Below are positions 30,754-58,792 of a stretch of 64,000 bases of DNA, one piece after another. Under the pieces are notes generated by a model. It was not told the DNA's origin. It was given only the letters and a program-made list of their open reading frames with translations, and searched no databases. The DNA is taken from assembly GCF_017874375.1 (NCBI RefSeq), contig NZ_JAGGLK010000003.1, positions 496,001 to 560,000 of the forward strand. Reading direction: 5' to 3'. Positions within the stretch are counted from its first letter, which is position 1; each line of letters starts with the position of its first letter. The DNA comes from Methanohalophilus levihalophilus (GTDB lineage Archaea; Halobacteriota; Methanosarcinia; Methanosarcinales; Methanosarcinaceae). A program made the position numbers and the translations under genes.

Positions 30754-33303
<2,550 letters not shown>

Positions 33304-33362: not shown

Positions 33363-33677
33363 CTGCTGTCGTGTCCGTTTTAGAACCTCTTTTACATGAA
33401 TTTTATTCCATTAATCCCGTAGAAAAGGAAATGGAAAAATCAATACACCGATATCAATAAATAATGCTCTCCCAATCTTTATTATGTAACAAATCTCAGG
33501 AGTGAGGTAAATCAATATCTGAAAGTGGTTCAATAATTCACATATAGTTAGTGTAGTACCGAAATTCAGATCGCTGAAGCGGGTGTTGGTGTACCAATTT
33601 CTGCGATTAGGGAAAAGATCTCATTGGAACTAAATTCTGTATTTATTACTTTTAAATTCACAGTTTGGTGATTAGTA
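33363..33677. other. Gap of ~315 bases without a clear gene
   Basis: No start-to-stop gene is seen. The segment 33560-33640 on the plus strand reads as a protein-like stretch (IQIAEAGVGVPISAIREKI) with no start codon, which may be a decayed gene. A TTGGT-GT-ACCAA inverted repeat lies near 33586-33597. The promoter of the DUF2180 genes should be in the AT-rich last 60 bases. Confidence 0.4.
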
Positions 33678-33914
33678 ATGAAATGTTATGAATGTGAAAA
33701 AGAAGGCAAAACCACCGATACAGTAGGTATTTGCATAATTTGTGGAAGAGGTGTTTGTAAAGACCACCTTGTAAGGGAACAGGTTCCGGTATTGGAAGGA
33801 GAATATCAGGTAAGGGTCAAATGTATGGGAGATGCATGTGAACTAAAGGATATGCAGCCCCTGCTTAAGGTAGTCTGCAAGCCATGCCACGAAGCCCTGA
33901 AGGAAAACTTCTGA
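33678..33914 (+). CDS. DUF2180 small Cys-rich protein (copy 1)
   Basis: 78 aa with paired cysteines: MKCYECEKEG, ICIICGRGVCKDHL, CMGDACEL, and CKPCHEAL. The spacing suggests one or two zinc sites of B-box or treble-clef type; it fits DUF2180, a family found in methanogens. Function unknown. It is the first gene of the plus-strand redox island, 11 bases before a second copy, with no ribosome-binding site that stands out. Confidence 0.75.
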   Translation: MKCYECEKEGKTTDTVGICIICGRGVCKDHLVREQVPVLEGEYQVRVKCMGDACELKDMQPLLKVVCKPCHEALKENF

Positions 33915-33925
33915 GGTGATTTACA

Positions 33926-34144
33926 ATGATGAAATGTTATGATTGTGCTGAAGATGGAAAAGAAGTTGAAGCTTCCGCAGTATGTATTGTCTGTGGTAAA
34001 GGTCTCTGTAGCGATCACTCAAAAGAGGTTCCACTCCCGTTGACAGTGGGAAAGCCTCCTGAAGTAAAGCGCCTGCACAAAAGCCTTCCACACTTCATGT
34101 GCAACTATTGCTTTGACAACACAGTTGAAGATTCGTTCGACTGA
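33926..34144 (+). CDS. DUF2180 small Cys-rich protein (copy 2)
   Basis: 72 aa, a paralogue of the preceding gene: MKCYDCAEDG, VCIVCGKGLCSDHS, and CNYCFDN at the end; the central CMGDACEL pair of copy 1 is missing. AGGTGA lies six bases before the first ATG; a second ATG follows directly. The tandem pair probably arose by duplication. It is followed by the AhpD-like gene. Confidence 0.75.
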   Translation: MMKCYDCAEDGKEVEASAVCIVCGKGLCSDHSKEVPLPLTVGKPPEVKRLHKSLPHFMCNYCFDNTVEDSFD

Positions 34145-34168
34145 ATATGATGGGGAGGTTTGAAGAAA

Positions 34169-34519
34169 ATGAGCGAACACGAAGAGGTTGTAAAAAGTAT
34201 AGGGGACAAGATGGGTTTCACTCCAAAAATACTTGAAACCCTGAAAGATATAGATCCGCATTTTGTGAGAAAGTACAACCGCTGCAATGAGAAAATTCTC
34301 ACTGATGGAGCTATTGAAGCCAAATACAAGGTACTAATGGCCCTTGCTGTGGTTGCATCAAAGCAATGTGAAGCATGTACGGTTTCCCAGATGAGAAGCG
34401 CTCTTAACCACGGTGCTACAAAAGAAGAGATCATGGAAACCATGGAAGTTATTTCAATAACATCCGGGGCTCCGGCAGTGGCTGCCTGCAGGGATGCATT
34501 AAAGCTCCTGAAAGACTGA
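34169..34519 (+). CDS. Carboxymuconolactone decarboxylase/AhpD-like protein
   Basis: About 116 aa, all-helical CMD fold. The redox-type pair is in [26 protein letters not shown] (Cys-Glu-Ala-Cys followed by the conserved His), the AhpD signature. It is likely a thiol peroxidase or reductase; true decarboxylases lack the CxxC. ATG 34169 lies 10 bases after GGGGAGG; a TTG at 34160 is too close to it. It leads into the cytochrome gene. Confidence 0.82.
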
Positions 34520-34587
34520 ATCGATTCCAGAATCGGGAAGTTCACGAATACGAATTTCCCACTTTATTCATTTTCGGGGGGTTCTCT

Positions 34588-35979
34588 ATGCTATCCAAAA
34601 ACCCTGTTGTTTTGCTAAGTATCACAATCATTTTCTTAGTACTTGTATTACCAGCTACTGCTTTGCCTTCTTCGCATGGTGAATTTACATCAGATGAGTT
34701 TACTGAATACTCAAAGTGTGGACAGTGCCATGCTATAATTAGAAGTGAATGGGATGGAAGTATGCATGCAAATGCTTTCACAGATCCTTTTTATCAGGAA
34801 GAATTGAAGCTTGCCAGTGAAGACAGTGATGGTGCACTTGATCTCTTCTGCACTCGCTGCCATATTCCTGTAGGTGTGTTGTCGGCAGAAGTTCCGCCAA
34901 TTGATGGCTCACAAGCTAGCGATGTTGCTCTTGAAGCAGTTAGCTGCGATTTCTGTCACACTGTATCCGATAATGATGGGACTGGAAATGGTGCTTTCAT
35001 TTCTTCTCCGGGAACAACAAAGTACGGTCCATTTGATGATTCGGAATCTGCGTTCCATGGAAGTGAATATCTGGAGCTTTACCAGCAAGCAGAATACTGT
35101 GGAATGTGTCATCAGGTTTATCATCCAGCCAATGGGCTGGTTCTGGATGATACTTACATGGCCTGGGAAGAGGGTCCCTACTCCGAACGCGATGTAACAT
35201 GTCAGGATTGTCATATGACTCCTGGAATCACCGATTTTGAAGCCAATCCCGGAAGAGCCGGTTCAGGTGCACCCAAACGTGATCATATTTCCACCCACTA
35301 TTTCTCAGGTGCTAATGTCTTCGTAACAGGAATCCTTGATGAGGAAGATACTATTGAGCTTAATACAGAACGACTCCAGAAAGCTGCTACAGTTGAAGTT
35401 GCTATTCCAGAAACAGCTGAAGCCGGTGAAACTGTGAATATGGAGGTCAGCATCACAAATTCAGGTGCTGGTCACAATATTCCTACAGGTCTTATAGAAG
35501 CCCGGCAGATATGGCTTGAAGTTCTGGTTTCGGATGCTTCAGGCACTGTGTTGCTGGACAGTGGATCTCTGGACTCAGAAGGTAACATACAAAATGCAGT
35601 TGTTTACCAGACAAAGTTTGCAGATTCAGATGGTGAACCCACATTTAAGCTATGGGAAGCTGCATCGGTAATTTCAGACAACAGGATATCTCCTGAAGAT
35701 ACGGCAATCGAAGAGTTTTCTTTTGAAGTGCCGGAGAATGTTGCTGATCCTATTTCTGTAGACGTAAAACTATTGTACCGGTCTGCTCCGCAATCAATGA
35801 TAGATGATATCTTTGGAGACAATGTGCATGAAGTCCCAGTTGTGGAAATGAATTCCTATCGTGGAGCAATTAACGGCGATGTGCCCTCAGAATCAACTCC
35901 CGGATTCGGTGTTGCAGGGATGATCCTTTCATTGATGGGTGCCATATTATATCTCAGGTATGGGAAAAAGGAGGAATGA
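34588..35979 (+). CDS. Pentaheme cytochrome c, exported, PGF-CTERM anchored
   Basis: 463 aa. Residues 1-26 are a signal peptide. Five CXXCH motifs follow: CGQCH (44-48), CTRCH (88-92), CDFCH (120-124), CGMCH (171-175) and CQDCH (205-209). Further His residues (e.g. HANAF, FHGSEY, HISTHYF) could be distal ligands as in cytochrome c554-type folds. Residues ~260-425 look like a beta-rich Ig-type domain. The end has TPGFG at ~437, a hydrophobic stretch and GKKEE, a PGF-CTERM archaeosortase A signal. It should sit outside the membrane, tethered to the surface. It is not the heptaheme MmcA by heme count. The ferredoxin gene follows after one base. Confidence 0.88.
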   Translation: MLSKNPVVLLSITIIFLVLVLPATALPSSHGEFTSDEFTEYSKCGQCHAIIRSEWDGSMHANAFTDPFYQEELKLASEDSDGALDLFCTRCHIPVGVLSAEVPPIDGSQASDVALEAVSCDFCHTVSDNDGTGNGAFISSPGTTKYGPFDDSESAFHGSEYLELYQQAEYCGMCHQVYHPANGLVLDDTYMAWEEGPYSERDVTCQDCHMTPGITDFEANPGRAGSGAPKRDHISTHYFSGANVFVTGILDEEDTIELNTERLQKAATVEVAIPETAEAGETVNMEVSITNSGAGHNIPTGLIEARQIWLEVLVSDASGTVLLDSGSLDSEGNIQNAVVYQTKFADSDGEPTFKLWEAASVISDNRISPEDTAIEEFSFEVPENVADPISVDVKLLYRSAPQSMIDDIFGDNVHEVPVVEMNSYRGAINGDVPSESTPGFGVAGMILSLMGAILYLRYGKKEE

Positions 35980-35980
35980 C

Positions 35981-36172
35981 ATGCCGCCGATTGTAGATGA
36001 GGACAGGTGTACTGGTGTTGGTGCATGTGCTGAAATTTGTCCGACGGAAGTAATTGATCTTGAGACAAAAAGTGAAGGGAAAACAATTGCCGTAATTGCA
36101 CGCCCTGAAGACTGCACAGAATGTGAACAATGCGTAAACGTCTGTCCCGAAGATGCAATCAGTATGGAGTAA
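35981..36172 (+). CDS. Ferredoxin with one complete and one three-cysteine cluster motif
   Basis: 63 aa from ATG 35981 (MPPIVDEDR). The C-terminal motif CTECEQCVNVCP is complete (Cys 45, 48, 51, 55). The N-terminal motif reads CTGVGACAEICP: the second Cys is Val13, leaving Cys 10, 16 and 20. Such loss usually gives a [3Fe-4S] centre or one with a non-Cys ligand. The ferredoxin at 13313-13486 has all eight. It sits between the cytochrome and the iron-sulfur flavoprotein genes, so it is probably an electron carrier for that set. Confidence 0.9.
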   Translation: MPPIVDEDRCTGVGACAEICPTEVIDLETKSEGKTIAVIARPEDCTECEQCVNVCPEDAISME

Positions 36173-36185
36173 AAAGGGGTATTGT

Positions 36186-36797
36186 ATGTCAGATAATGAA
36201 CCAATAAAAATTCTGGGAATATCGGGAAGCCCCCGAAAAAAATCCACAGATTATGCCGTAAAATATGCTCTCCAGCACGCTGAAGAGAAGTTTGGTGCAG
36301 AAACCCAATATTTCTCTGCCAGGGGAATGGACCTTAAGTTCTGTATCCACTGTGATCATTGCATCAGGACAAAGAAGGGTTGTATTCACAAGGATGATAT
36401 TGTTTCACTTTATGATATGATGCTCTGGGCAGATGCCTGGATTATCGGGACACCTGTTTATCAGGGAAATCTGAGTGCTCAAACCAAGACTATTATGGAC
36501 AGATGTCGTGCTGTTGTGGCAAAAGACCCAAAATCATTCCAGAACAAAGTTGGATCTGCATTGGCAGTTGGCGGTGACCGTGTAGGTGGGCAGGAGCCTG
36601 CAATCAAGACCATCCTTGATTTCTACGTTATCAGTGAAATGATTCCGGTATCAGGTGGTTCATTTGGTTCTAATCTGGGTGGTACGCTCTGGTCTCAGGA
36701 TAAAGGTGCCGAAGGAACTTCCGAGGACTCGGAAGGCTTGCGTAGTTTGAGGAAAACTGTGAACCGAATGGTTACTATGGCCCAGAAGTTCAAATGA
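36186..36797 (+). CDS. Iron-sulfur flavoprotein (Isf), NADPH-dependent FMN reductase fold
   Basis: 203 aa from ATG 36186 (MSDNEPIKIL), behind AAGGGGT. ILGISGSPRKKSTDY is the FMN phosphate loop; the compact cysteine motif CIHCDHCIRTKKGC (CX2CX2CX6C) is the [4Fe-4S] site of the Isf family; GTPVYQGNLSAQTK is the second FMN loop. Isf from Methanosarcina accepts electrons from ferredoxin and can reduce O2 or H2O2. Here it stands in a run with the ferredoxin and two more flavoproteins. Its stop overlaps a possible start of the next gene. Confidence 0.87.
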   Translation: MSDNEPIKILGISGSPRKKSTDYAVKYALQHAEEKFGAETQYFSARGMDLKFCIHCDHCIRTKKGCIHKDDIVSLYDMMLWADAWIIGTPVYQGNLSAQTKTIMDRCRAVVAKDPKSFQNKVGSALAVGGDRVGGQEPAIKTILDFYVISEMIPVSGGSFGSNLGGTLWSQDKGAEGTSEDSEGLRSLRKTVNRMVTMAQKFK

Positions 36798-36817
36798 GGC
36801 TGAAAATGGGGAATTTA

Positions 36818-37513
36818 ATGGAATTTGAAGTAATCCTTAATGATGTTATACCTCGAACTCATGATGTGAAGAGTTTCCGTTTTAATAAGCCAGAAGGTTT
36901 TGACTATCTTGCAGGCCAATACATCATGGTTTCAGTTTCTGTAGATGGTACTGTTTTGAAAAAACCCTTAACAATCTCCAGCAGCCCTTTAGATGAAGAT
37001 CTTGAGTTTACAAAGAAGCTTACAGGACACGAATTTTCTAATGCTCTTGATTCTTTGAATGCAGGCGATTCTTTCACAATTGATGGGCCTTACGGAAAGC
37101 TTACTTTTGAAGGAGAATATGACAAAATTGCACTGATAAGTGGTGGAATTGGAATAACTCCTATGATAAGCATCTGTAAAAATTGTACTGATCAAAAAGC
37201 ACCTTTTGATATCGTCCTCATAGCAAGTAACAAGACTGAGGAGGATATTGCTTTCCGTAAAGAGCTTGAGCAAATGGAGTCTGAAAATCCTCATCTTCGT
37301 GTGGTTCACACCCTTACCAGGGCAGATGATAGTTGGAAGGGTTGCAGGGAGCATATTTGCGAAAATATGATATTAAAAGAAATACCAGATTATAAGGAAA
37401 GGGTATTCTATCTTTGCGGACCTCCGGGGATGGTGAAAGCCGTAAAGGAACTTCTGGTTGAAATGGATATACCAAAATCAATGATGAAAATTGAATTAAT
37501 TACAGGATACTAA
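36818..37513 (+). CDS. Ferredoxin-NAD(P)+ reductase-like flavoprotein
   Basis: 231 aa from ATG 36818 (MEFEVILND), six bases after GGGG; ATG 36794 and 36806 are upstream options. The FAD domain has AGQYIMVSV and KPLTISSSP, the NAD(P) domain ISGGIGITPM and FYLCGPPGMV, and the end is IELITGY. No 2Fe-2S domain is attached, unlike PyrK-type subunits. It should transfer electrons between NAD(P)H and an Fe-S or flavin partner, probably the ferredoxin or Isf encoded next to it. Confidence 0.83.
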   Translation: MEFEVILNDVIPRTHDVKSFRFNKPEGFDYLAGQYIMVSVSVDGTVLKKPLTISSSPLDEDLEFTKKLTGHEFSNALDSLNAGDSFTIDGPYGKLTFEGEYDKIALISGGIGITPMISICKNCTDQKAPFDIVLIASNKTEEDIAFRKELEQMESENPHLRVVHTLTRADDSWKGCREHICENMILKEIPDYKERVFYLCGPPGMVKAVKELLVEMDIPKSMMKIELITGY

Positions 37514-37536
37514 TTAGGAATTAAAAGAGGGATTGT

Positions 37537-38076
37537 ATGAAACGAATTGCATGGGGAATTACAGGATCAGGTGACCAGATTAAGGAAACTTATGAGATAA
37601 TGGCTGATATCAGCAAAAGAACAGATATTGAATTCATGGTTTTCCTTTCAAAAGAAGGAGAAACCGTCATGAAGTGGTACAGGATGTGGGACAGCATCCA
37701 GCACGATTTCCCGAACTTCAAGACTGACGCCGGACCAAATTCTCCATTTATTGCAGGCCCATTGCAAGTTGGTCACTATGATGCACTTATAATTGCTCCG
37801 GCAACTGCTAACAGTGTTGCCAAGATTGTTTACGGAATTGCAGATACACTTGTGACCAACGTTGTTGCACAGACTGCAAAAGGACAGACTCCGATTTACA
37901 TACTTCCGGTTGATCAGGTAAGGGGTGAGGTCACAACCTATTCTCCGGAAGGCAAAGAAATGAAACTCAAAATGCGTGAAGTGGATGTAAGGAATTCTGA
38001 AAAGCTGGCAGAAATGGAAAATATAACTGTGCTCAAAAAACCTGAAGACATCTATAAACTTGTAGGGCTGGAATAA
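37537..38076 (+). CDS. Flavoprotein of the AfpA/DmrX type
   Basis: 179 aa, flavoprotein (HFCD) fold: RIAWGITGSGDQIKETYEIM at the start, LIIAPATANSVAKIVYGIADTL as the FMN-binding region, and ILPVDQVRGEV later. It matches archaeoflavoprotein AfpA, which takes electrons from ferredoxin, and the related dihydromethanopterin reductase DmrX. I cannot separate the two; the adjacent ferredoxin and Isf genes favour the AfpA role. It is the last gene of the island and has a terminator at its stop codon. Confidence 0.8.
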   Translation: MKRIAWGITGSGDQIKETYEIMADISKRTDIEFMVFLSKEGETVMKWYRMWDSIQHDFPNFKTDAGPNSPFIAGPLQVGHYDALIIAPATANSVAKIVYGIADTLVTNVVAQTAKGQTPIYILPVDQVRGEVTTYSPEGKEMKLKMREVDVRNSEKLAEMENITVLKKPEDIYKLVGLE

Positions 38077-38100
38077 GCCCTATTTCTTATCCTCTTGATT
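38063..38100 (+). terminator. Terminator of the redox island
   Basis: TAGGGCT (38063-38069) and AGCCCTA (38076-38082) form a 7-bp stem, followed by TTTCTTATCCTCTTGATTTTT. The afpA-type stop TAA (38074-38076) is in the loop and stem edge. Confidence 0.7.
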
Positions 38101-40190: not shown

Positions 40191-40601
40191 TTAAAGATTG
40201 AAAAAATTCAAGTCTTTATGCATAAAGGCAAACCACAAAACAAAAGGGAAAGCAGCTCTTCCTATAGCATAAACATAAAACAGTTCGCTTGTAACGGATG
40301 CAAAGTTGAACTGGAGAGCTATTATTGTGACTGTAAACAGGAATATTACAGCAGATCCGATTGCTATCAATCTCAATCTCTTTCTGTTTTCTATTGGAGT
40401 GGCCAGGATAAGTGCTATAAAAGGCACGAGATTCAAAGGAAGGTAAAAAGTAAAGAAATCAAATGCATTCAATGCATGGTCGGGCGATAATATATAGGCC
40501 CTAATAGCGGGGATTCCCAATAAAAACAGTATTGTCAGGTATAGAAGAAATTTACCCACAAACACTGTCATCTTTAGCTTTTCACTATTTTCTCTATCCA
40601 T
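40191..40601 (-). CDS. Small membrane protein next to archaeosortase
   Basis: 136 aa with four predicted helices (residues ~14-34, 48-66, 76-96, 110-128), rich in Phe and Leu, ending MHKDLNFFNL. I do not recognise a family. It overlaps the archaeosortase gene by 28 bases and so is translated from the same mRNA; a partner role in sorting-signal processing is an inference from position. The 160 bases downstream to the inositol gene show no clear terminator. Confidence 0.6.
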   Translation of the reverse strand: MDRENSEKLKMTVFVGKFLLYLTILFLLGIPAIRAYILSPDHALNAFDFFTFYLPLNLVPFIALILATPIENRKRLRLIAIGSAVIFLFTVTIIALQFNFASVTSELFYVYAIGRAAFPFVLWFAFMHKDLNFFNL

Positions 40602-41122
40602 ATCAGAACAACCAATACTATTATGAGAATCAATGTTACCTGCCAGAGGTAATAATGGACATAATCAAACATGTCAGGATACCAAATTCCAACAAAGCCA
40701 AGACAAATAAGGCGTACCATATTAATTCCAAGTATTACAGGAATTCCAAATGCAATGCCCATGAGCTTTTTCTGGTATGTCGTTGTATAAGCCATCACAC
40801 AGCTTGAGTATACGAGAACCTCGTATATCCCCGTACATTCATCAATAACTTTCAGTGCAGGAGCTCCTTCTTCAAAAAGGAGAAGGTTTTCGGTAACCGT
40901 ATTTGCTACGCCTAAGCTACTCATCATATATGAAAAGGTGCCGGCTGTCAGGTTCCTCAGAAATTCCAGATCTTCTTTTAGCAATAAGTAAAGCCCGGTA
41001 AAAATGCTGATGTAAATCAGATATAGGGCAACGAATCTTGCAATTCTGTTATCTTTTAGCTCGTAGAGTTTTAGCTTGAGACTTTTGGTATTTTCCCGTT
41101 TTTTCCTCTGCTTTTTCCCCAT
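40574..41122 (-). CDS. Archaeosortase/exosortase-family protein
   Basis: 182 aa with about five helices. The three conserved positions of the exosortase fold are visible: the catalytic Cys in IDECTGIYEVLVYSS (~93), the Arg in GINMVRLICLG (~135), and the His in FDYVHYYLWQ (~155). These enzymes cleave C-terminal tripartite signals and join surface proteins to the envelope. The nearby PEF-CTERM protein points to an ArtC-type role, but the short size also fits ArtE-like proteins. The N-terminus is very basic (KKQRKKRENTK). Confidence 0.85.
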   Translation of the reverse strand: MGKKQRKKRENTKSLKLKLYELKDNRIARFVALYLIYISIFTGLYLLLKEDLEFLRNLTAGTFSYMMSSLGVANTVTENLLLFEEGAPALKVIDECTGIYEVLVYSSCVMAYTTTYQKKLMGIAFGIPVILGINMVRLICLGFVGIWYPDMFDYVHYYLWQVTLILIIVLVVLIWIEKIVKS

Positions 41123-41162
41123 AGTTTCCCCGTTTTTATACTTGTGCGAGAGTACTTAAAAA

Positions 41163-41180
41163 TATCTAAAAAAAAGAAGG
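41163..41180 (-). terminator. Poly-U terminator of the 41197-42408 gene
   Basis: On the minus strand CCCCCCTTCTTTTTTTTAG follows 20-30 bases after the TAA. No stem is seen; a T-tract alone is enough for archaeal termination. Confidence 0.5.
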
Positions 41181-41196
41181 GGGGGATGGGTAAGAA

Positions 41197-42408
41197 TTAT
41201 TCGCGACGTTTCATCGCAACAATTCCAACCAATCCAAGAGCTCCGATAAGTCCGATAAGACCAATTGGAGTCATTGCAGGAACATCTTCGGGTGGTTCAC
41301 AGAGGTAGTTGGCCGGGTCATTGTCTGTTACCGGTATTCCTGAGACAGCTCCCACTCCGTTTGTGGTTCCTATATTGGTGTAGTCTGTACACAGTCTGGG
41401 GACGGTTCCTGATGCATAAAGGGTAGCTTCCTCATTTACGTCAAGATCACCGATATTCCCAATGAAACCAATTATGTCATCTGTGACACTGACACTTGTC
41501 AGGGGTTCATCACCGGTGTTTGTGACTACGTATCTCCAGTAAACTGCACTGTTGTTTTCGAGGACTGGTGCAGTCAGCTTAGTGTTGGCATCAAACCATG
41601 TTGAATTATCTGCGGAGACATATTTCTTGATCATAATGTCCGGACAGGTGAAGTGCACAAATGCGGTAGCTGTGTCTTCTCCAGGGGTGTCGGCAGTACC
41701 ACCGGCACGGACTTCTATCATTATGTCTTCCTGACAGGGTCCGATGTCCCAGATTTCGCTGGCGTCGCTTATTGCAATTTCATAGACACCATCCGCTGTT
41801 GGGCTGAATGCTGCTTCTACATCACTGTATGCAAGAGGTCCAATAATGATTGCCCAGTCGTTATCCTGAACATCAATTTCAACTGCGGGACTTCCGGTTT
41901 GGGTTATTCTGATTGTCCATAGTTCCCATTGGCCCAACCCAAGCCCTGCCGGGCCGGCATTACCATCGGTATCCCTGTTGTCAAAGATTGTGTTTGTGCT
42001 GCCGTCGCCATCCAGATCTCCCGGAATTCCGTATACTGTTGTCATCCCAAAGAGGGTGTCATTTGCAAAATCATAGTGACCATAGATTCTCATGATGTCC
42101 TGGCCACTTGAATCTCCTTCAGTTGCCATTGTTTCGTCATGTGAAGTTCCGGAGTCATTTTTAGGGTCTTCTGCATTCCAGATGGTAGTATCATCATCAA
42201 ATGCACCCTGTCTTACTTCTAGTCGGTTCCCGGTATTGAAAACATCATACTCGCCAGCTGCTGTGGCGTTGTTGGTTTGTCCAAATGCCCAGTTATCATT
42301 CCATTCCGGGTCTTTGATACCATCAACGGTGATAGCTGATGCGGCGGGTACTGATGCCACTAAAGCCAATACCATCAAAATAGTTAGCCATAGCTTCATC
42401 TCTTTCAT
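41197..42408 (-). CDS. Exported surface protein with a VPAMTP-type C-terminal signal
   Basis: 403 aa from ATG 42408, eight bases after AGGAG; a GTG at 42417 is also in frame. Residues 1-26 are a signal peptide ending PAASA. Residues ~27-240 match the neighbour at 42807-43667 (AITVDGI, WAFGQTNNATAAGEYD, GHYDFANDTLFGMTTVYGIP, EIDVQDNDWAII). An extra DUF11-like beta domain (~245-360: YWRYVVTNTGDEPLTSVSVT) is inserted before the end. The C-terminus is VPAMTPIGLIGLIGALG, then VAMKRRE: motif, hydrophobic helix and basic end, a tripartite sorting signal that differs from PEF-CTERM. Glycosylation and anchoring are likely; function unknown. Confidence 0.82.
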   Translation of the reverse strand: MKEMKLWLTILMVLALVASVPAASAITVDGIKDPEWNDNWAFGQTNNATAAGEYDVFNTGNRLEVRQGAFDDDTTIWNAEDPKNDSGTSHDETMATEGDSSGQDIMRIYGHYDFANDTLFGMTTVYGIPGDLDGDGSTNTIFDNRDTDGNAGPAGLGLGQWELWTIRITQTGSPAVEIDVQDNDWAIIIGPLAYSDVEAAFSPTADGVYEIAISDASEIWDIGPCQEDIMIEVRAGGTADTPGEDTATAFVHFTCPDIMIKKYVSADNSTWFDANTKLTAPVLENNSAVYWRYVVTNTGDEPLTSVSVTDDIIGFIGNIGDLDVNEEATLYASGTVPRLCTDYTNIGTTNGVGAVSGIPVTDNDPANYLCEPPEDVPAMTPIGLIGLIGALGLVGIVAMKRRE

Positions 42409-42438
42409 CGTATCCACTCCTATATACCACCTTTCTTA

Positions 42439-42775
42439 GTAGTTCTAAGTAGGATAATTTAATTTATGGAGAAGATTGCTTATAACGATGCAGTAAACAT
42501 AGTTACTGACGTATCGTAGGGCATGAGCATAATGAAAATGTGATTTTTCTTTGATGTTGTGGATGCTCAGAAAGCGCTGATTTATCTTATTTTAGAAGAG
42601 ATTTACGACATATCTGGATGTTCTCCAAACTCCTAATTTCAGTTGCTTTCCTTGAAAGTTCGAATATAAATACTTAATAAACATAAATTCTGAAATTATT
42701 TCCTAAAAAGATATTTGGAAAACGGAGCCTGAGCTATTTTTCGGAAGCTATTGAAAAAATCCGTGAATTAAGATT
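42439..42775 (-). promoter_or_regulatory. Gap with the promoter of the VPAMTP-type gene
   Basis: The part next to the gene (42418-42515) is similar to the region before the paralogue (43677-43775): CCACTCCT, GTACCACC-like, GGATAAT, ATTTATGGAG and AGTAAAC-TAGTT-CTGAC blocks align. CGTTATAAGC (~42479-42488, minus) may be the TATA box. The remaining ~250 bases are AT-rich with no gene. Confidence 0.5.
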
Positions 42776-42812
42776 ACAAAAAAAATCAGGAGTAAGGGAT
42801 TAACCCTCACTC
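42776..42812 (-). terminator. Terminator of the PEF-CTERM gene
   Basis: GAGTGAGGG-TTAAT-CCCTTACTC (minus strand, 42812 to 42790) is a 9-bp stem with one G-U pair, followed by CTGATTTTTTTT. The stop codon (42807-42809) lies in the stem. Confidence 0.8.
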
Positions 42813-43667
42813 ATTTTTTCTTCTCTGGAAGAAAAATGCAAGTCCAAGAATTGCAGCTATTGGAATTGCAACTGTTGGGAATTCGGGGATTTCATTGTCG
42901 CATGGGATCCTGACGAATGCAGTCGCAGTGTCTTCTCCGGGGCTATCTCCAACACCACCAGCCTGTACTTCTATCTTTATGTCTGGTGAGCAGGGCCTGA
43001 TATCCCATATTTCGCTCATATCCTGTATTGATATCTCGTAGACTCCGTCAACAGTTGGGCTAAATGCTGCTTCCACGTCTCCGTATGTAAGAGGTCCGGA
43101 AATGATTGTCCAGTTGTTATTCTGAACATCGATTTCAACTGTAGGGCTTCCTGACTGGCTTATTCTGATTCTCCACAATTCATATTCTCCCAGTCCAAGG
43201 CCTGCAGGACCTGCTGTCCCATCTTCATCTCTGTTATCAAATGTTGTATCTGTGTTTCCGTCGCCGTCAAGATCTCCTGGGATTCCATATACTGTTGTCA
43301 TCCCAAACAGTGTGTCATTTGCTGCGTCGTAGTGGCCATAAATTCTCATTATGTCCTGACCACTTGATTCTCCTTCGCTTGCCATTGACTCATCATGTGT
43401 AGAACTTGAATCATTTTTTGGATCTTCTGCGAACCAGGTTCCTTCAAAGTCGTCAAATGCTCCTTGAGCGATTTCCAGCCTGTCTCCCAGGTTGTTTATA
43501 TCATACTCTCCGGCGGCGGTTGCATTATTTGTCTGGCCGAATGCCCAGTTATCATCCCACTCTGAAGGGCTGTTTATCCCATCTACATTTATTGCAGATG
43601 CTGCCGGGATTGATGCCATTAATGCCACCACTACAAGAAGAGTTGTCCATAGGTTAATTTTTCTCAT
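42807..43667 (-). CDS. Exported PEF-CTERM surface protein
   Basis: 286 aa from ATG 43667, eight bases after AGGAG. Signal peptide 1-26 (ends PAASA), then the same ~210-residue domain as its neighbour (WAFGQTNNATAAGEYD, GHYDAANDTLFGMTTVYGIP, DVQNNNWTII). The end is IPEFPTVAIPIAAILGLAFFF followed closely by QRRKNE: a classic PEF-CTERM signal recognised by archaeosortase C. The domain has many Asp and an acidic character. It is a paralogue of the 41197-42408 gene, which has another signal and an extra domain. Confidence 0.88.
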   Translation of the reverse strand: MRKINLWTTLLVVVALMASIPAASAINVDGINSPSEWDDNWAFGQTNNATAAGEYDINNLGDRLEIAQGAFDDFEGTWFAEDPKNDSSSTHDESMASEGESSGQDIMRIYGHYDAANDTLFGMTTVYGIPGDLDGDGNTDTTFDNRDEDGTAGPAGLGLGEYELWRIRISQSGSPTVEIDVQNNNWTIISGPLTYGDVEAAFSPTVDGVYEISIQDMSEIWDIRPCSPDIKIEVQAGGVGDSPGEDTATAFVRIPCDNEIPEFPTVAIPIAAILGLAFFFQRRKNE

Positions 43668-43850
43668 CGTATCCACTCCTTTGTACCACCTTATAGGATA
43701 GGCTTAAGTTTAGGATAATAGTATTTATGGAGCAGATTGAATATAATTGCCTAGTAAACTTAGTTTCTGACTTAATATCTATTTTCTGTCAGGAAAACCC
43801 GTTGGGTATTGGGAAAAGCAAACATAAGTGAAAACAAGTCAGTTAGGTAG

Positions 43851-44645
43851 TTAGTTCTGAGTCTTCAGGACACTTTTTTTATGGGATGGTGTATGGTTAG
43901 GTGTCCTTTCCGGGTAATTTACGCATTCCTGTGAAATAGATCCATCAAGAATTTTCTCCATCAGGTAGATAGCTTCATTCGGGATTTTTGTTCTTTTCCC
44001 TTTATCTCCATATTCCATGTTAAGGTAGTCAGAAGGCGTCTTACAAACGCCATTCTTTGGATCCTTTGGGTCATAATCTTCAATAAAAACAACACATCCC
44101 TTGAAGCCTAAATTTTTCACTACATAGTCAAGTGCATACTTTACTCCGTAATGGCAACCTATTCCCGGCATGAAGTATTCGTAGCCTTCACTTCTTTTTT
44201 GTTTTAGCCAGGGGAAAAGGTTTGAGTCACTGTCGATTATAAAAATCCTGTCTTTAGTGAATCCTTTTTGCTTAAGAACATCGACCATTTTTCCAAGGGA
44301 GCAAGGGACTTTACATTGGGCGCCATCCAGCTTCAGGCACTTTTGGTTTTTTCGGCCGTCGATGGTGTCTGAAACGGGGCATGTAGTATCATTCCTTGGT
44401 TTCGCGCAATAGGGCAGAAATGCAATACATTTGTCGATTTCGTCCTCAACTACTCTGTTGATATTCAGTGAAGGTGGGTAAACTGCAAGAGAATTGTTTT
44501 TTGGAATTGTTTCCTGTTTGTTAAGTTTGCACTTGCGTTCAATAAGATATTTGTTGATTGCATATGGGGTGAAAGCATGCGCTATTTCTTTTAGTGATGC
44601 TGTTTGTTTTTTTTCTACGCATGTTCTGGGATTTGTTGCTTTCAA
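43851..44645 (-). CDS. DUF116-like cysteine-rich protein
   Basis: About 264 aa. Cysteines cluster in CIAFLPYCAKPRNDTTCP, KCLKLDGAQCKVPCSLGKM, and later GIGCHYGVKYALDYV, as in DUF116 proteins (possible Fe-S or zinc binding; function unknown). The open frame begins at GTG 44702, but a TATA box (TATTTATATA, minus, 44706-44715) lies only a few bases upstream of it, so the mRNA should begin downstream. I prefer TTG 44645, which has GAGGTGAT just before it. No signal peptide, so it is cytoplasmic amid genes for exported proteins. Confidence 0.65.
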   Translation of the reverse strand: MKATNPRTCVEKKQTASLKEIAHAFTPYAINKYLIERKCKLNKQETIPKNNSLAVYPPSLNINRVVEDEIDKCIAFLPYCAKPRNDTTCPVSDTIDGRKNQKCLKLDGAQCKVPCSLGKMVDVLKQKGFTKDRIFIIDSDSNLFPWLKQKRSEGYEYFMPGIGCHYGVKYALDYVVKNLGFKGCVVFIEDYDPKDPKNGVCKTPSDYLNMEYGDKGKRTKIPNEAIYLMEKILDGSISQECVNYPERTPNHTPSHKKSVLKTQN

Positions 44646-44947
44646 CGCAATCACCTCATCATCATAATAATTATGTATGGGACAATTAGTAATAGGTTTC
44701 ACCCGTATATAAATATGTCGATTTTAATTTTTATACATTTATATATTTTGTTTCATTGTCTACCTTTTTCATTTCTGACTGTGGCCCCTGAAGCCTAAAA
44801 TGATTAGAAGCTGTCGTTTTTTAATTTAATTTTCCAATTAATAATTGGGTGGCAGGCAAATAAAAGAGTCCGGTTTAGTGGTTAGAATAATAGTTATTTA
44901 TGTGATGATCAACAGGAATTGAATTACCCAATCCCCGATGAAATATA
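44646..44947 (-). promoter_or_regulatory. Promoter of the DUF116 gene and AT-rich gap
   Basis: TATTTATATA on the minus strand (44706-44715) is the clearest TATA box in this part. From 44720 to 44947 the sequence is AT-rich with no gene; AATTAATAATT-type repeats near 44835-44848 have no clear role. Confidence 0.55.
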
Positions 44948-45196
44948 TCACAGTTTTAGAAGCATTGCAAGATCATGGAAGGTTTTTCCTTTTTCAGTTG
45001 TAATGTACAGATTCCCTTCCTGCCTTATCAACTCTTTTTCTTCTAACATTTCTAAGTATTTCTTTGCAATACTGAAATTTAAATTTGTATTATAGACAAT
45101 TTGGGTTTTATTTGCCCCATTCTTCGCTGTTTCTAAAATATCAGCTGAAATGTCTATTCTGTTTCTTCTCTTAATGGCCACCACTCCCCGAAACAT
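44948..45196 (-). CDS. Small winged-helix DNA-binding protein (HTH_45 type)
   Basis: 82 aa: RRNRIDISADILETAKNG (helix 1), ANKTQIVYNTNLNFSIAKKYLEML (helix-turn-helix) and LYITTEKGKTFHDL (wing and last helix). It matches the small archaeal winged-helix proteins that typically control nearby genes. The ATG at 45196 has only a weak GTGAAAG before it. Its place inside the surface island makes it a candidate local regulator, by inference only. Confidence 0.8.
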   Translation of the reverse strand: MFRGVVAIKRRNRIDISADILETAKNGANKTQIVYNTNLNFSIAKKYLEMLEEKELIRQEGNLYITTEKGKTFHDLAMLLKL

Positions 45197-45320
45197 CTTT
45201 CACTTTATTAGAGCACATCTGGATACCAAGCCTCTGCACTATTTTCTTAATTCATAATTGAATGCAGATTAAATAAATAAGCCCGGTACAGGGTTACGAA
45301 ACATAGTTCTCCCGGATGTG

Positions 45321-45341
45321 ATAAGATCGCCATGATCTTAT
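45321..45341 (-). terminator. Hairpin at the stop codon of the 45338-45832 gene
   Basis: ATAAGATC-ATGGC-GATCTTAT is a perfect 8-bp stem with a 5-nt loop that includes the stop codon. No T-run follows, so it may be an mRNA 3' end rather than a terminator. Confidence 0.55.
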
Positions 45342-45832
45342 TTTGGTCTGTATCTCATCGCCGCAATAGCGCCTATTATCAAAAGACCTCCTGCCAAGAT
45401 CATTAAATATGTGTTATCCAGAGTTTGCTGATTAGTATTAGTTGAAATATCAAGATCAATTGTGTTCCCAGGTCTTGCGTTTTGGAATTCATTTTCTTCA
45501 GTGTCAGCTTCGACTCCATCGATATAGATTTTTATTTTCTCATAGTCATCCTGCCCGGAAGTTATCAGGAGCCTGTTAGTGGGAAGATCGCCATACAAAC
45601 CTTCTGTGCTTATTGTGGTTGAGCCTACGATCCTGTCGTCAATCATTGCGACAACTTCTGAACCGATTTCTGCGGGTTCTCCGTTTACAGTTGCACTGCC
45701 CTTGAGTATCAAAGGCATTATCGGGGTTGCTTCTTCTGCAGCCATTGCAGTTGGTATTGCCAATACGGCAAATAAGAGCAAGAACGCCTGTAGGACTATT
45801 TTCAGTTTATGATGGACCTGAGTATGATTCAT
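45338..45832 (-). CDS. Exported, C-terminally anchored surface protein (copy 1)
   Basis: 164 aa. Signal peptide 1-32 (LKIVLQAFLLLFAVLAIP ... AMA), a ~85-residue beta-rich domain (GSATVNGEPAEIGSEVVAMI, LPTNRLLITSGQDDY, KIYIDGVEAD), then a helix (LMILAGGLLIIGAIAAM) and RYRPK. No PGF or PEF motif precedes the helix, so it may be a simple C-terminal anchor. GAGGATAATT precedes the ATG. It is a paralogue of the next upstream gene. Confidence 0.75.
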   Translation of the reverse strand: MNHTQVHHKLKIVLQAFLLLFAVLAIPTAMAAEEATPIMPLILKGSATVNGEPAEIGSEVVAMIDDRIVGSTTISTEGLYGDLPTNRLLITSGQDDYEKIKIYIDGVEADTEENEFQNARPGNTIDLDISTNTNQQTLDNTYLMILAGGLLIIGAIAAMRYRPK

Positions 45833-45922
45833 AATTATCCTCTACGGGTTTGGAAGATGTACAGGTAGATTTTCCTGCAACATCTTCCTGATCTCAGAAG
45901 CTTTGTTGTTGTATCACTTTTT

Positions 45923-46609
45923 TCAGTTCTTCCTGTGTTTCACAAGTACCACTATTCCAATCAGTGAAACCAGTATTAGTCCAAAGAGTCCACTTACAAC
46001 TGCAGATGATTCTGCGTCGGCGGATGGGCTACTACCAATTGTAGTATCTCCAGCTCCAGCTTCATCTCCTGCAAAAGCTGTGCTTTCAAATGATTCTACT
46101 TCACTAGGCGTTGCATCTGAGCTGCCAGTTCCCATACTTCCAAATGATGAAGAAGATGAACTGCTGGTTGTGGCTTCAGTGGTGCTTGTTGTGGTTGTTC
46201 CACCGCTTGAAGCCGCTGATGCATCGGCGCTCAGGCTGGTTGAAATGGTGTCTCCTGGTGCTGCATTGGTTAAGTCTATAAGATCTGTTTCTACTCCATT
46301 AACGTAGAATTTGAGGTTTTGATAGTCATCGGGTTCGGAAGTTATTAGCAGCCGGTTGTTAGGTGCATCTCCGAATATTCCTTCAGATTCTACAGTTGTC
46401 ATTCCAACTGTTTTATCCCCAAGTTTAACTGTGATCTCAGTTCCCACAGGTGCTGCCTCTCCACCGATTGTAATATCTCCTTCCGCAATGATTGGGAATG
46501 ATGGGGCGGATTCTGAAGCCGCGCCTACAGGGATCGTTGCTATTGCAAACAATAAAATGAATGCCTGTAAGATTATTGTGTATTTTGAAAAGCTCCCTTT
46601 CTTGATCAT
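45923..46609 (-). CDS. Exported, C-terminally anchored surface protein (copy 2) with Ser/Thr-rich linker
   Basis: 228 aa. Signal peptide 1-30, the same beta domain as copy 1 (GDITIGGEAAPVGTEITVKL, APNNRLLITSEPDDY, KFYVNGVETD), then a ~75-residue Ser/Thr/Gly linker (TTTTSTTEATTSSSSSSS), probably heavily O-glycosylated, and a C-terminal helix with VLVKHRKN. The linker is missing in copy 1. GGGTGATTAC precedes the ATG. Anchored stalk-like protein; function unknown. Confidence 0.75.
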   Translation of the reverse strand: MIKKGSFSKYTIILQAFILLFAIATIPVGAASESAPSFPIIAEGDITIGGEAAPVGTEITVKLGDKTVGMTTVESEGIFGDAPNNRLLITSEPDDYQNLKFYVNGVETDLIDLTNAAPGDTISTSLSADASAASSGGTTTTSTTEATTSSSSSSSFGSMGTGSSDATPSEVESFESTAFAGDEAGAGDTTIGSSPSADAESSAVVSGLFGLILVSLIGIVVLVKHRKN

Positions 46610-46624
46610 GTAATCACCCTTTAT

Positions 46625-46657
46625 TAAAATAAAAAAAGGTGAGTAAAAAACTCACCT
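46625..46657 (-). terminator. Strong terminator after the repeat-protein gene
   Basis: AGGTGAGT-TTTTT-ACTCACCT (minus strand, 46657 to 46637) is a perfect 8-bp stem followed by TTTTTTATTTT. It ends the transcript of the 46691-48772 gene, 35 bases past its stop. Confidence 0.85.
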
Positions 46658-46690
46658 GAATGTTTTATTCTTTGTTTCCAGCTCCTCCGG

Positions 46691-48772
46691 TTATCCCACA
46701 AGTGTGTCTTCCTGGGTCAGGTATACCCAGAAACCATCGAATGGGCTAACTTCAAAGATATCTGTTCCGACGTGGTTTCCAGCAATGACGCCTGTTTCAC
46801 CATTGTGGCCTATCTGTTCATAGGTCATGTTAGCAGGATCATACGGACCTTTGATCGTAGTGTAAGACTCGTCGATTGAACTTAGTGCCAACTCAGCTGG
46901 CAGGGTAGTCATTGCATCGCTGTAACCGATTGCATTCCATCCTGCACACAGTGTCTTGGTAGGTGGTACTGTTGGTACCATTGGTTCAAGAACATCGAGT
47001 GTTATTACCTGATCTTCAGTCTCGTCGCTTTCAATCCAGTAGCCGCACAGTGGATCCAAGGTGGTTGGTATCTCCCACATGCCTGAACAATTGTCGTATG
47101 AAGCATTGTAGTACATGATTGTACTGTAGTTGATGTCCGCAAGGACAAATTCAACAGTGCTGTTGTTCAGGTAATATGGTACTGATATGAAGTTCCATCC
47201 TTCCTCGATCACAATACCTTCTGGTTCTTCTGGAGGCTCAACTGGCTCCTCGACAACTTCCATCTGGGTTTCGCAGTCAATTGGCTGTAGGCCAGGTGCT
47301 GCTACATTCAGATCGAATACACCGTCGAAGTCGTATGTTCCGAGTGCTGCATCGCCTGGGATTGTGACATCGTATGTGAACTGGTTGTCACCAGGTGCTG
47401 CTCCAGAGTTTGTCCAGCCGACTGTGTTATCATCGACGACAAATCCACCATCAGATGGGTTGCTTACTACCCACCCTGCAGGTACATTATCCTCGAGTAC
47501 AGTCTTGTCAGCACCGTCCAGTGTAATGTCCAGTTTCACAGTAATTGTGTCACCTGGGTTTGCAGTTGCCGGAAGGTCTCTGCATACATTTGGTTCTCCA
47601 CCATTTTGTGCTGCCTCGACATCCATCTGAGTTTCGCAGTCAATTGGCTGTAGGCCAGGTGCTGCTACATTCAGATCGAATACACCGTCGAAGTCATATG
47701 TTCCTGGTGCTGCATCGCCTGGGATTGTGACATCGTATGTGAACTGGTTGTCACCAGGTGCTGCTCCAGAGTTTGTCCAGCCGACTGTGTTATCATCGAC
47801 GACAAATCCACCATCAGATGGGTTGCTTACTACCCACCCTGCAGGTACATTATCCTCGATTACAGTCTTGTCAGCACCGTCCAGTGTAATGTCCAGTTTC
47901 ACAGTAATTGTGTCACCTGGGTTTGCAGTTGCCGGAAGGTCTCTGCATACATTTGGTTCTCCACCATTTTGTGCTGCCTCGACATCCATCTGAGTTTCGC
48001 AGTCAATTGCCTGTAATCCAGGTGCTGCTACGTTCAGATCGAATACACCGTCGAAGTCATATGTTCCTGGTGCTGCTGCGCCTGGAATTGTGACATCGTA
48101 TGTGAACTGGTTGTCACCAGGTGCTGCTCCAGAGTTTGTCCAGCCGACTGTGTTATCATCGACGACAAATCCACCATCAGATGGGTTGCTTACTACCCAC
48201 CCTGCAGGTACATTATCCTCGATTACAGTCTTGTCAGCACCGTCCAGTGTAATGTCCAGTTTCACAGTAATTGTGTCACCTGGGTTTGCAGTTGCCGGAA
48301 GGTCTCTGCATACATTTGGTTCTCCACCATTTTGTGCTGCCTCGACATCCATCTGAGTTTCGCAGTCAATTGCCTGTAATCCAGGTGCTGCTACGTTCAG
48401 ATCGAATACACCGTCGAAGTCGTATGTTCCTGGTGCTGCATCGCCTGGAATTGTGACATCGTATGTGAACTGGTTGTCACCAGGTGCTGCTCCAGAGTTT
48501 GTCCAGCCGACTGTGTTATCATCGACGACAAATCCACCATCTGATGGGTTGCTTACTACCCACCCTGCAGGTACATTATCCTCGATTACAGTCTTGTCAG
48601 CACCGTCCAGTGTAATGTCCAGTTTCACAGTAATTGTGTCACCTGGGTTTGCACTTGCGGGGAGATCCCTGCAGACATTTGGATCTGCTGCTGCCGCTGA
48701 GACCATTGCGAGTGTCACTAGGCATACTAAACCTATGACTCCAAACAATTGGATACATTTTGGTATTTTCAT
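46691..48772 (-). CDS. Exported surface protein with four 121-residue repeats
   Basis: 693 aa. Signal peptide 1-29, then four tandem repeats of ~121 residues (31-~510), each starting PNVCRDLPA and containing NPGDTITVKLDITLDGADK, the WVVSNPSDGGFVVDD segment and a second Cys in IDCETQM; the two Cys per repeat could form a disulfide. The repeats look like DUF11-type beta sandwiches. A Pro/Glu linker (EEPVEPPEEPEG) leads to a ~165-residue domain (EGWNFISVPYYLNNSTVEFVL, GYWIESDET, AGWNAIGYSD) typical of methanogen surface proteins. No C-terminal helix is present. Likely an envelope component. Confidence 0.85.
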   Translation of the reverse strand: MKIPKCIQLFGVIGLVCLVTLAMVSAAAADPNVCRDLPASANPGDTITVKLDITLDGADKTVIEDNVPAGWVVSNPSDGGFVVDDNTVGWTNSGAAPGDNQFTYDVTIPGDAAPGTYDFDGVFDLNVAAPGLQAIDCETQMDVEAAQNGGEPNVCRDLPATANPGDTITVKLDITLDGADKTVIEDNVPAGWVVSNPSDGGFVVDDNTVGWTNSGAAPGDNQFTYDVTIPGAAAPGTYDFDGVFDLNVAAPGLQAIDCETQMDVEAAQNGGEPNVCRDLPATANPGDTITVKLDITLDGADKTVIEDNVPAGWVVSNPSDGGFVVDDNTVGWTNSGAAPGDNQFTYDVTIPGDAAPGTYDFDGVFDLNVAAPGLQPIDCETQMDVEAAQNGGEPNVCRDLPATANPGDTITVKLDITLDGADKTVLEDNVPAGWVVSNPSDGGFVVDDNTVGWTNSGAAPGDNQFTYDVTIPGDAALGTYDFDGVFDLNVAAPGLQPIDCETQMEVVEEPVEPPEEPEGIVIEEGWNFISVPYYLNNSTVEFVLADINYSTIMYYNASYDNCSGMWEIPTTLDPLCGYWIESDETEDQVITLDVLEPMVPTVPPTKTLCAGWNAIGYSDAMTTLPAELALSSIDESYTTIKGPYDPANMTYEQIGHNGETGVIAGNHVGTDIFEVSPFDGFWVYLTQEDTLVG
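47231..48682 (-). repeat. Four tandem 363-bp repeats inside the surface gene
   Basis: Units on the minus strand start at about 48682, 48319, 47956 and 47593. Units 2-4 are nearly identical at the DNA level, including silent positions; unit 1 differs mostly at its first ~30 bases, and unit 4 has a few changes (Val-Leu for Val-Ile, Ala-Leu for Ala-Pro). This indicates recent duplication or gene conversion. The last unit fades into the linker near 47240. Confidence 0.9.
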
Positions 48773-48785
48773 ATTGAACCCCCCA

Positions 48786-48828
48786 TAAATTGAATGGGAG
48801 AGATTTTCATCTCTCTACACTCAATTTA
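48786..48828 (-). other. Two-step hairpin between two surface genes
   Basis: Inner stem GAGAGAT/ATCTCTC (48798-48804 and 48809-48815, loop TTTC) and outer stem TAAATTGA/TCAATTTA (48786-48793 and 48821-48828) stack with small internal loops. It lies 6 bases after the stop of the 48834-51005 gene and 14 bases before the start of the repeat protein gene. No T-run follows, so it is more likely an RNA-processing or stability element than a terminator. Confidence 0.65.
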
Positions 48829-48833
48829 CAAGT

Positions 48834-52190: not shown

Positions 52191-52235
52191 TTAACTTAGC
52201 TGCTTATTGTACTTGCTATTTGGGAGTTGAACACA

Positions 52236-52721
52236 ATGAGTATGCTCGAAGATATTAACAAAGAACTTGATGCTTTGAAAACGATTGAGGCAGCTGTTGA
52301 AATGGCTATTTCCCTTGAGGATCAGGGTTGTGAATTTTACACTGAGAAGGCGGGAACTACCACAGAAGTGGCAATTAAGGAAATGTTTGAATACCTTGCA
52401 GATGAGGAAATCAAACATGCTGAGTACCTGCACAATTTCCTGAAGGAAAACAATATGGAAATTACAGTTTCCGAAACACCGAGCTTCACTCAGGCTCTTT
52501 CTGAAGAATTTTCAACCGGTAAAATGGATGAGGTTGGTATTCTTCTCGCAGCCCTGCGTTTTGAGAGGAAGAGTGAAGATTTCTATGCTGAACTCGCAAA
52601 AAGAAGCGATGATGAGGTACAGAAAAAGTTCTTTAAGAAACTCGCTGAAGTCGAACGTGGTCACTATGAGATCATTGACGGTCTTCTTGATATTTCAACT
52701 GGCTTCAGAATGCAGACATAA
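52236..52721 (+). CDS. Ferritin-like diiron protein (rubrerythrin-type, no rubredoxin domain)
   Basis: 161 aa, four-helix bundle. Metal ligands are visible in AISLEDQGCEFYTEKAG, DEEIKHAEYLHNFL, LRFERKSEDFYAEL and VERGHYEII (two ExxH-type pairs). There is no C-terminal rubredoxin domain. It is likely a peroxide-reducing diiron protein. ATG 52236 is preferred, with GGGAG upstream; a TTG at 52227 is in frame. It is followed by fprA after 18 bases. Confidence 0.82.
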   Translation: MSMLEDINKELDALKTIEAAVEMAISLEDQGCEFYTEKAGTTTEVAIKEMFEYLADEEIKHAEYLHNFLKENNMEITVSETPSFTQALSEEFSTGKMDEVGILLAALRFERKSEDFYAELAKRSDDEVQKKFFKKLAEVERGHYEIIDGLLDISTGFRMQT

Positions 52722-53999: not shown

Positions 54000-54275
54000 A
54001 TGCAATTCTATGACGATCTCGAAACTGAATTTTATGAGCGTTCCAAAAAGAATGCAGAGACTACCGGATACAGGCTAAACACTGAATATGATATTATTTC
54101 CACTGCTGTTAAGAATATAGCAAAGAACAAGCGTGAATTTGGTGAATGGTATTGCTTCTGTCAGAAAAGGACCGGTGACGTTGAAAAGGACAAGAAGATC
54201 ATTTGTCCATGTGCAGCAAGGGCAAGGGACGTTGAAACCAAAGGTTCCTGTAAGTGCGGTCTTTACATGAAATAA
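54000..54275 (+). CDS. Ferredoxin-thioredoxin reductase catalytic subunit-like protein
   Basis: 91 aa with the FTR cysteine pattern: WYCFCQ, then CPC 17 residues on, then CKCGLYM near the end. These residues hold a [4Fe-4S] cluster next to a disulfide and pass electrons from ferredoxin to thioredoxin. Methanogens have this subunit without the plant-type variable chain. AGGAGAATAAAAT precedes the ATG. It ends the redox-defence set, with a terminator right after it. Confidence 0.88.
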   Translation: MQFYDDLETEFYERSKKNAETTGYRLNTEYDIISTAVKNIAKNKREFGEWYCFCQKRTGDVEKDKKIICPCAARARDVETKGSCKCGLYMK

Positions 54276-58666: not shown

Positions 58667-58792
58667 ATTCGGAGGGATTCCGAATAAACCCATATTTATT
58701 TCAAAGAAAATAACAAATTCCGGACTTTTTTAGACATACTTACTTAAATGTATGCATATTTTCCGCAGACTTATTCCTCTAAGGGTGATCAT
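58667..58792 (+). promoter_or_regulatory. Hairpin and promoter before rpoK
   Basis: ATTCGGA-GGGAT-TCCGAAT (58667-58685) is a perfect 7-bp hairpin ~50 bases after the tRNA, perhaps a terminator or processing site; no T-run follows directly. TTACTTAAATGTA (~58740-58752) is TATA-like and could give rpoK-rps2 its own transcript. Confidence 0.55.

Follow-up and report, generated by a model that had tools for sequence, protein, structure and literature searches.

Methanosarcina acetivorans carries a gene cluster, MA4664/MA3734-3743, that PMC3729527, with reference to Lessner and Ferry (2007), describes as a putative oxidative stress operon. Among its members are MA3739, a five-heme cytochrome, and MA3743, a homologue of FpaA (PMC3729527); MsvR showed no binding to the M. 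acetivorans promoters examined in the same study. Deletion of MA3739 had no effect on AQDS reduction, on uptake from Geobacter or on the use of Fe(0) (PMC6703419, PMC8546582, PMC10989991). The AQDS result is stated for all four non-MmcA cytochromes, and the Fe(0) paper reports that no non-MmcA cytochrome is required for uptake from Geobacter. AQDS raises the MA3739 transcript level about 4-fold and loss of mmcA raises it by 80%; cells grown by DIET also have more of it. In the literature searched we found no report of oxygen induction of the operon or of the oxidant tolerance of the MA3739 deletion strain, and MA3739 is not mentioned in BMC Microbiol 2010 10:62 or 2011 11:165. Isf, another protein kind of such clusters, is reported to interact with O2 and H2O2 (Cruz and Ferry 2006, as cited in PMC4338226). 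Two further systems are relevant to the cytochrome. MmcA of Methanosarcina has an OTR-like fold (PMC11024163). Thermochromatium c552, Geobacter ExtKL and cable-bacteria cytochromes have been grouped as a pentaheme family (PHC) structurally related to archaeal nanowires (PMC11976967), a relation to the archaeal extracellular cytochrome nanowire (ECN) reported there, by structure, for the cable-bacteria sPHC only.

Gene Content of the Operon

The window, the whole 64,000-nucleotide stretch of Methanohalophilus levihalophilus DNA analysed here, holds eight plus-strand open reading frames between 33678 and 38076, with intergenic gaps of -4 to 68 nt. The features discussed below are as follows.

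31274-33288, minus strand: mer and fpoF, divergent conserved neighbours (TIGR03555 and NF040616, over cut-off)
33448-33463, plus strand: promoter-like element CCGATATNNATAAATA, putative function
33516-33631, plus strand: relic of the desulforedoxin-like gene that heads the operon in relatives (local alignment)
33678-33914, plus strand: DUF2180 protein 1, Cys-rich, zinc-ribbon-like (PF09947, 9.7e-23)
33926-34144, plus strand: DUF2180 protein 2 (PF09947, 2.2e-20)
34160-34519, plus strand: CMD-family protein, MdrA-type disulfide reductase (PF02627, 4e-17)
34535-34560, plus strand: terminator-like hairpin in the 68-nt gap before the cytochrome gene (hairpin scan)
34588-35979, plus strand: pentaheme cytochrome c, exported, C-terminally anchored, with a C-terminal Ig-like domain (Cytochrome_C554, PF13435, five CXXCH)
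35981-36172, plus strand: dicluster ferredoxin with 3-Cys and 4-Cys sites (Fer4_7, 4.9e-14)
36186-36797, plus strand: Isf, iron-sulfur flavoprotein (PF03358, FMN_red, 2.7e-32)
36794-37513, plus strand: FNR-like FAD/NAD(P)-binding reductase (PF00970 and PF00175)
37537-38076, plus strand: archaeoflavoprotein AfpA (TIGR02699)
38062-38083, plus strand: plausible terminator-like hairpin at the operon end (hairpin scan)
52227-52721, plus strand: rubrerythrin, displaced cluster member (PF02915, 1.6e-15)
52740-53966, plus strand: flavodiiron F420H2 oxidase (FpaA), displaced member (family and homologue searches)
54000-54275, plus strand: ferredoxin:thioredoxin/disulfide reductase beta-like protein, FtrB-like (PF02943, 1.2e-14)

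A sequence-only reading of this DNA had recognized eight co-directional genes, including two for DUF2180 proteins and those for a pentaheme cytochrome, a 3-Cys/4-Cys ferredoxin, Isf, an FNR-like protein and AfpA, all of which the open reading frames and family matches confirm; the closing terminator that it saw is plausible as the hairpin at 38062-38083. Its view that no described system has this set does not hold, the oxidative stress operon of M. acetivorans being already published (PMC3729527, citing Lessner and Ferry 2007). Hairpins are weak evidence in this window, the scan returning 8 terminator-like sites against 4.2 expected; judged from sequence, the one before the cytochrome gene could let the two halves of the operon be expressed at different levels.

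The metal- and cofactor-binding residues of several products are strongly conserved. In DUF2180 protein 1, C3, C6, C19, C22, C27, H30, C67 and C70 are invariant, as are seven Cys and one His in DUF2180 protein 2 (30 sequences each). The first site of the ferredoxin reads C10-x5-C16-x3-C20-P and misses its second Cys, an absence common to all 18 homologues listed, while the other site is a full 4-Cys one. Isf combines a flavodoxin-like domain with an invariant CX2CX2CX6C (28 sequences), within the compact CX2CX2CX4-7C motif of that family. The best solved relatives of the FNR-like reductase are NADH-cytochrome b5 reductases. AfpA reaches 270 bits with TIGR02699 (cut-off 192) and has 3WIS as a solved relative. 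An Isf/AfpA pair is known in Archaeoglobus and Methanosarcina. As there, the window has both families close together and the Isf cysteine motif intact; unlike there, the pair is embedded with FNR, ferredoxin, CMD and cytochrome genes.

The CMD protein had been called AhpD-like, a label that stands at the family level (PF02627) and fails for AhpD proper, its cysteine pattern fitting MdrA. Counted from an internal Met, C39, C67XXC70 and C107 are all invariant (32 sequences), at positions 39/67/70/107, which we take to be those of MdrA. AhpD peroxidase was rejected: TIGR00778 gives 21.8 bits against 27.8, and the CXXCX3H motif is absent, CEACTVSQ standing in its place. The host has a second MdrA-type CMD gene, directly after a peroxiredoxin-like gene (L077:8622-9134, G000:C2), also present in most Methanohalophilus genomes.

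Conservation, Decay and Displacement

A search over 60 relatives found the cytochrome at near full length in 29 Methanosarcinales genomes. CMD lies upstream of it in all 29, the DUF2180 pair precedes CMD in 26, and Isf and AfpA follow downstream in 25; since the order is kept in 25/29 genomes, it lies far beyond chance. Judged by this distribution, the gene order is old and conserved, and the same gene set, when looked for in other methanogens, proved co-conserved as the sequence-only reading would have it. The flanks are shared as well: mer and fpoF adjoin the operon in 25-26 loci, and nadM in about 25.

Methanosarcina-type loci read DUF2180-DUF2180-CMD-superoxide reductase-cytochrome-Isf-AfpA-rubrerythrin-FpaA, with superoxide reductase between CMD and cytochrome, and rubrerythrin and FpaA after AfpA (L052-L054, L057). 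The gene kinds and order of L052 and L054 agree with the M. acetivorans numbering (CMD 3736, five-heme cytochrome 3739, FpaA 3743), a match read from Methanosarcina-type genomes and gene numbering. The window keeps the DUF2180 pair, CMD (with MdrA cysteines), pentaheme cytochrome, Isf and AfpA in M. acetivorans-type order. It differs in its desulforedoxin relic, in the presence of ferredoxin and FNR genes, and in the detoxification genes: superoxide reductase, rubrerythrin and FpaA are not found within the same operon here. The host's superoxide reductases lie on other contigs, and rubrerythrin, FpaA and FtrB, of which rubrerythrin adjoins AfpA in Methanosarcina-type loci, follow 14 kb downstream.

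Three genes vary in presence across loci: those for the ferredoxin, for FNR, and for a rubrerythrin placed between FNR and AfpA. This second rubrerythrin is found in genera other than Methanosarcina. Two genomes (G019, G026) have the operon without the cytochrome, CcmE being present. In the nearest relative, G002, cytochrome and ferredoxin are lost, with both breakpoints inside contigs. Three genomes (G037, G044, G056) have CMD and cytochrome with TusA, IscS and an IscU-TrxR fusion in place of Isf-FNR-AfpA, and G056 has its AfpA and DUF2180 genes beside rubrerythrin, FpaA and FtrB, apart from the cytochrome. ANME-like loci (L055, L056, L058) show CMD and cytochrome with TusA, DsrE, IscS and a fused IscU-thioredoxin-reductase-like protein; the company of IscS and the fusion suggests a role of the ANME-like CMD-cytochrome pair in Fe-S repair. 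In anammox planctomycetes (Brocadia, Scalindua, Loosdrechtia; L027-L035) a homologue 38-41% identical to the cytochrome stands alone, beside trigger factor-, ClpP- and helix-hairpin-helix-like genes and with no conserved redox partner in its neighbourhood, a distribution that suggests an old transfer between archaea and planctomycetes.

Construction and dismantling of the operon across genera are thus on display, gene decay in the Methanohalophilus genome included. Desulforedoxin is the first operon gene in 14 of the 33 loci scanned, among them that of G002; the intact genes of relatives encode 40-42 aa and match PF06397. The window retains a relic at 33516-33631, absent from the sequence-only list. 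Against the intact G002 gene it scores 57 in local alignment (a 79-column block, 33516-33594, 70% identity), whereas 500 shuffles gave no score above 34 and the rest of the window none above 33; the alignment with the L021 gene spans 33522-33631, and all four Cys are gone. Ahead of it, CCGATATNNATAAATA is the sole match in the window at up to 2 mismatches, and the loci of Methanohalophilus, G002 and genus g3 each have one exact copy ahead of the operon. On these alignments, the desulforedoxin gene of the window is decayed, with the promoter-like element ahead of it intact. Sigma-70 promoters, which have no meaning for archaea, match this region no more often than chance; the MsvR site TTCGN7-9CGAA matches the window once, at 58668, which is not close to the operon and does not exceed the chance expectation.

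In G002, rubrerythrin, FpaA and the FtrB-like gene come after the inositol-phosphate synthase gene with little between. In the window the same gap is occupied by an archaeosortase B cluster. This belongs to a minus-strand surface-protein island (40574-51005), which comprises archaeosortase B (TIGR04144, 270 bits, over cut-off), a VPXXXP-CTERM substrate (41197-42417; TIGR04143, over cut-off) and several large exported proteins, and it separates the two halves of the stress operon.

The Pentaheme Cytochrome

The N-terminus of the cytochrome resembles a signal peptide; the protein further has five CXXCH motifs, present in every full-length relative, a C-terminal domain and a TPGF-TM-basic tail. 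Heme attachment is plausible because the host has CcmE. The PGF-CTERM anchor proposed earlier can be recognized by eye from its TPGF, its TM helix and its basic tail, elements kept in most relatives, but TIGR04126 gives 14.8 bits, under its cut-off of 24.5. By sequence profile and fold the best solved match is 5ZE8, the Thermochromatium pentaheme c552 (Z 14.6, rmsd 4.2, 224 residues aligned; next row 9.8; heme part of low confidence). The AlphaFold2 model is reliable only in the C-terminal domain, and heme ligation cannot be read from it because pLDDT in the heme part is below 50.

Five CXXCH followed by an Ig-like domain matching 5ZE8 place the protein in the c552/ExtKL (PHC) fold, an architecture shared with Thermochromatium c552, Geobacter ExtKL and cable-bacteria sPHC. 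From these it differs in its identity of about 20%, its C-terminal membrane anchor and the lack of a porin or Ext gene nearby; the ExtKL profile NF040886 gives 59 bits against a cut-off of 250. Like MmcA, it is an exported multiheme cytochrome of a methanogen, yet it has five CXXCH rather than seven heme sites, belongs to another fold family and has no adjacent Rnf genes. Of the five non-motif His (60, 157, 233, 237, 296) four are invariant, and H233 is kept in 97% in methanogens. They could give every heme a second axial ligand, which leans to electron transfer. Most likely, this pentaheme protein of the c552/ExtKL fold carries electrons at the outer face.

Function of the Operon

We suggest that the operon is, with high probability, the form that the oxidative-stress operon of Methanosarcinaceae takes in Methanohalophilus, serving defence and repair against oxidants. 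Of the two outcomes that the sequence-only reading offered, defence against oxidants gains support from neighbourhoods in many genera and from the published naming of the M. acetivorans cluster, whereas outward respiration does not. Gene content, co-conservation, linkage to detoxification genes, the architecture of the cytochrome and the gain and loss of parts are observed; the electron donors, substrates and direction of flow of every operon protein we infer as follows. The cytosolic ferredoxin, FNR-like reductase, Isf and AfpA would pass electrons from ferredoxin or NAD(P)H to O2/H2O2 and to repair partners, and the MdrA-type protein would re-reduce protein disulfides. Frontline detoxification would fall to superoxide reductase, rubrerythrin, FpaA and FtrB, whose genes relatives carry inside or next to the operon and the present genome carries 14 kb off or at other places. 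The cytochrome would form a separate outer-face arm, probably drawing on the methanophenazine pool to reduce oxidants while they are still outside the cell. Because superoxide reductase, rubrerythrin and desulforedoxin are lost from the operon here, redox carriers and repair remain, and these losses count against the defence reading. The increases in MA3739 transcript with AQDS, under DIET and without mmcA are also compatible with general redox control.

An extracellular electron transfer chain, from ferredoxin through Isf, AfpA and FNR to the cytochrome and on to minerals, humics or partner cells, would account for a surface cytochrome of the c552/ExtKL fold, a family linked to extracellular transfer and archaeal nanowires (PMC11976967), and for the response of MA3739 to AQDS (4-fold) and to mmcA deletion (80%). 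We consider it improbable. We find no support for an electron path that would join the soluble flavoproteins to the cytochrome, because each part occurs without the other in relatives, ANME-like archaea and anammox bacteria; no operon gene spans the membrane apart from the cytochrome's own anchor, so that cytosolic flavoprotein electrons are left without an evident route to it. These two points, together with the MA3739 deletion, without effect in three electron-transfer settings (AQDS, Fe(0), Geobacter), leave both the proposed direct link and outward respiration unsupported. Equally hard to credit is a general flavin/Fe-S maintenance operon for C1 metabolism, with oxidative stress incidental. 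The constancy of mer, fpoF and nadM beside the operon in about 25 loci speaks for such a tie, as does TIGR02700, a dihydromethanopterin reductase, as second-best family of AfpA; yet it leaves the repeated co-location of superoxide reductase, two rubrerythrin kinds, FpaA and desulforedoxin unexplained.

It is also conceivable, if rather unlikely, that within a defence operon the cytochrome is itself an outer-face enzyme reducing peroxide, NO, nitrite or hydroxylamine instead of a carrier. Its gene is located in a defence operon, it falls within the c554/NrfB/NrfH/c552 multiheme neighbourhood, and it has a homologue in anammox bacteria, which handle NO and hydroxylamine. Still, the protein has no CXXCK active-site heme, and its non-motif His could bis-ligate all five hemes, the usual carrier state.

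Under the oxidative-stress reading, the cytochrome looks like an add-on part, not the outlet of a new respiration, and the cluster as a whole indicates a shared old defence unit. We advance only tentatively the idea that the pentaheme cytochrome is a dedicated outer-face oxidant sink of the Methanosarcinales stress operon, shared with anammox planctomycetes. If true, such a sink would be a shield against O2 or reactive species powered by the respiratory chain. For the MA3739-type cytochrome, the cluster directs attention to oxidant tolerance as a phenotype.

Other multiheme proteins occur in the host. A whole-genome scan for the CXXCH pattern returned too many chance matches but brought a multiheme gene to light. 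The protein at G000:C3:370012-370554 belongs to PF13447, a multiheme family not found in the other genomes of the genus searched. A second multiheme cytochrome (L076:7685-8983; G000:C1, about 392.7-394.0 kb), with eight CXXCH, one CXXCK and a PGF-like tail, adjoins fumarate reductase TfrAB-like and fumarase-like genes.
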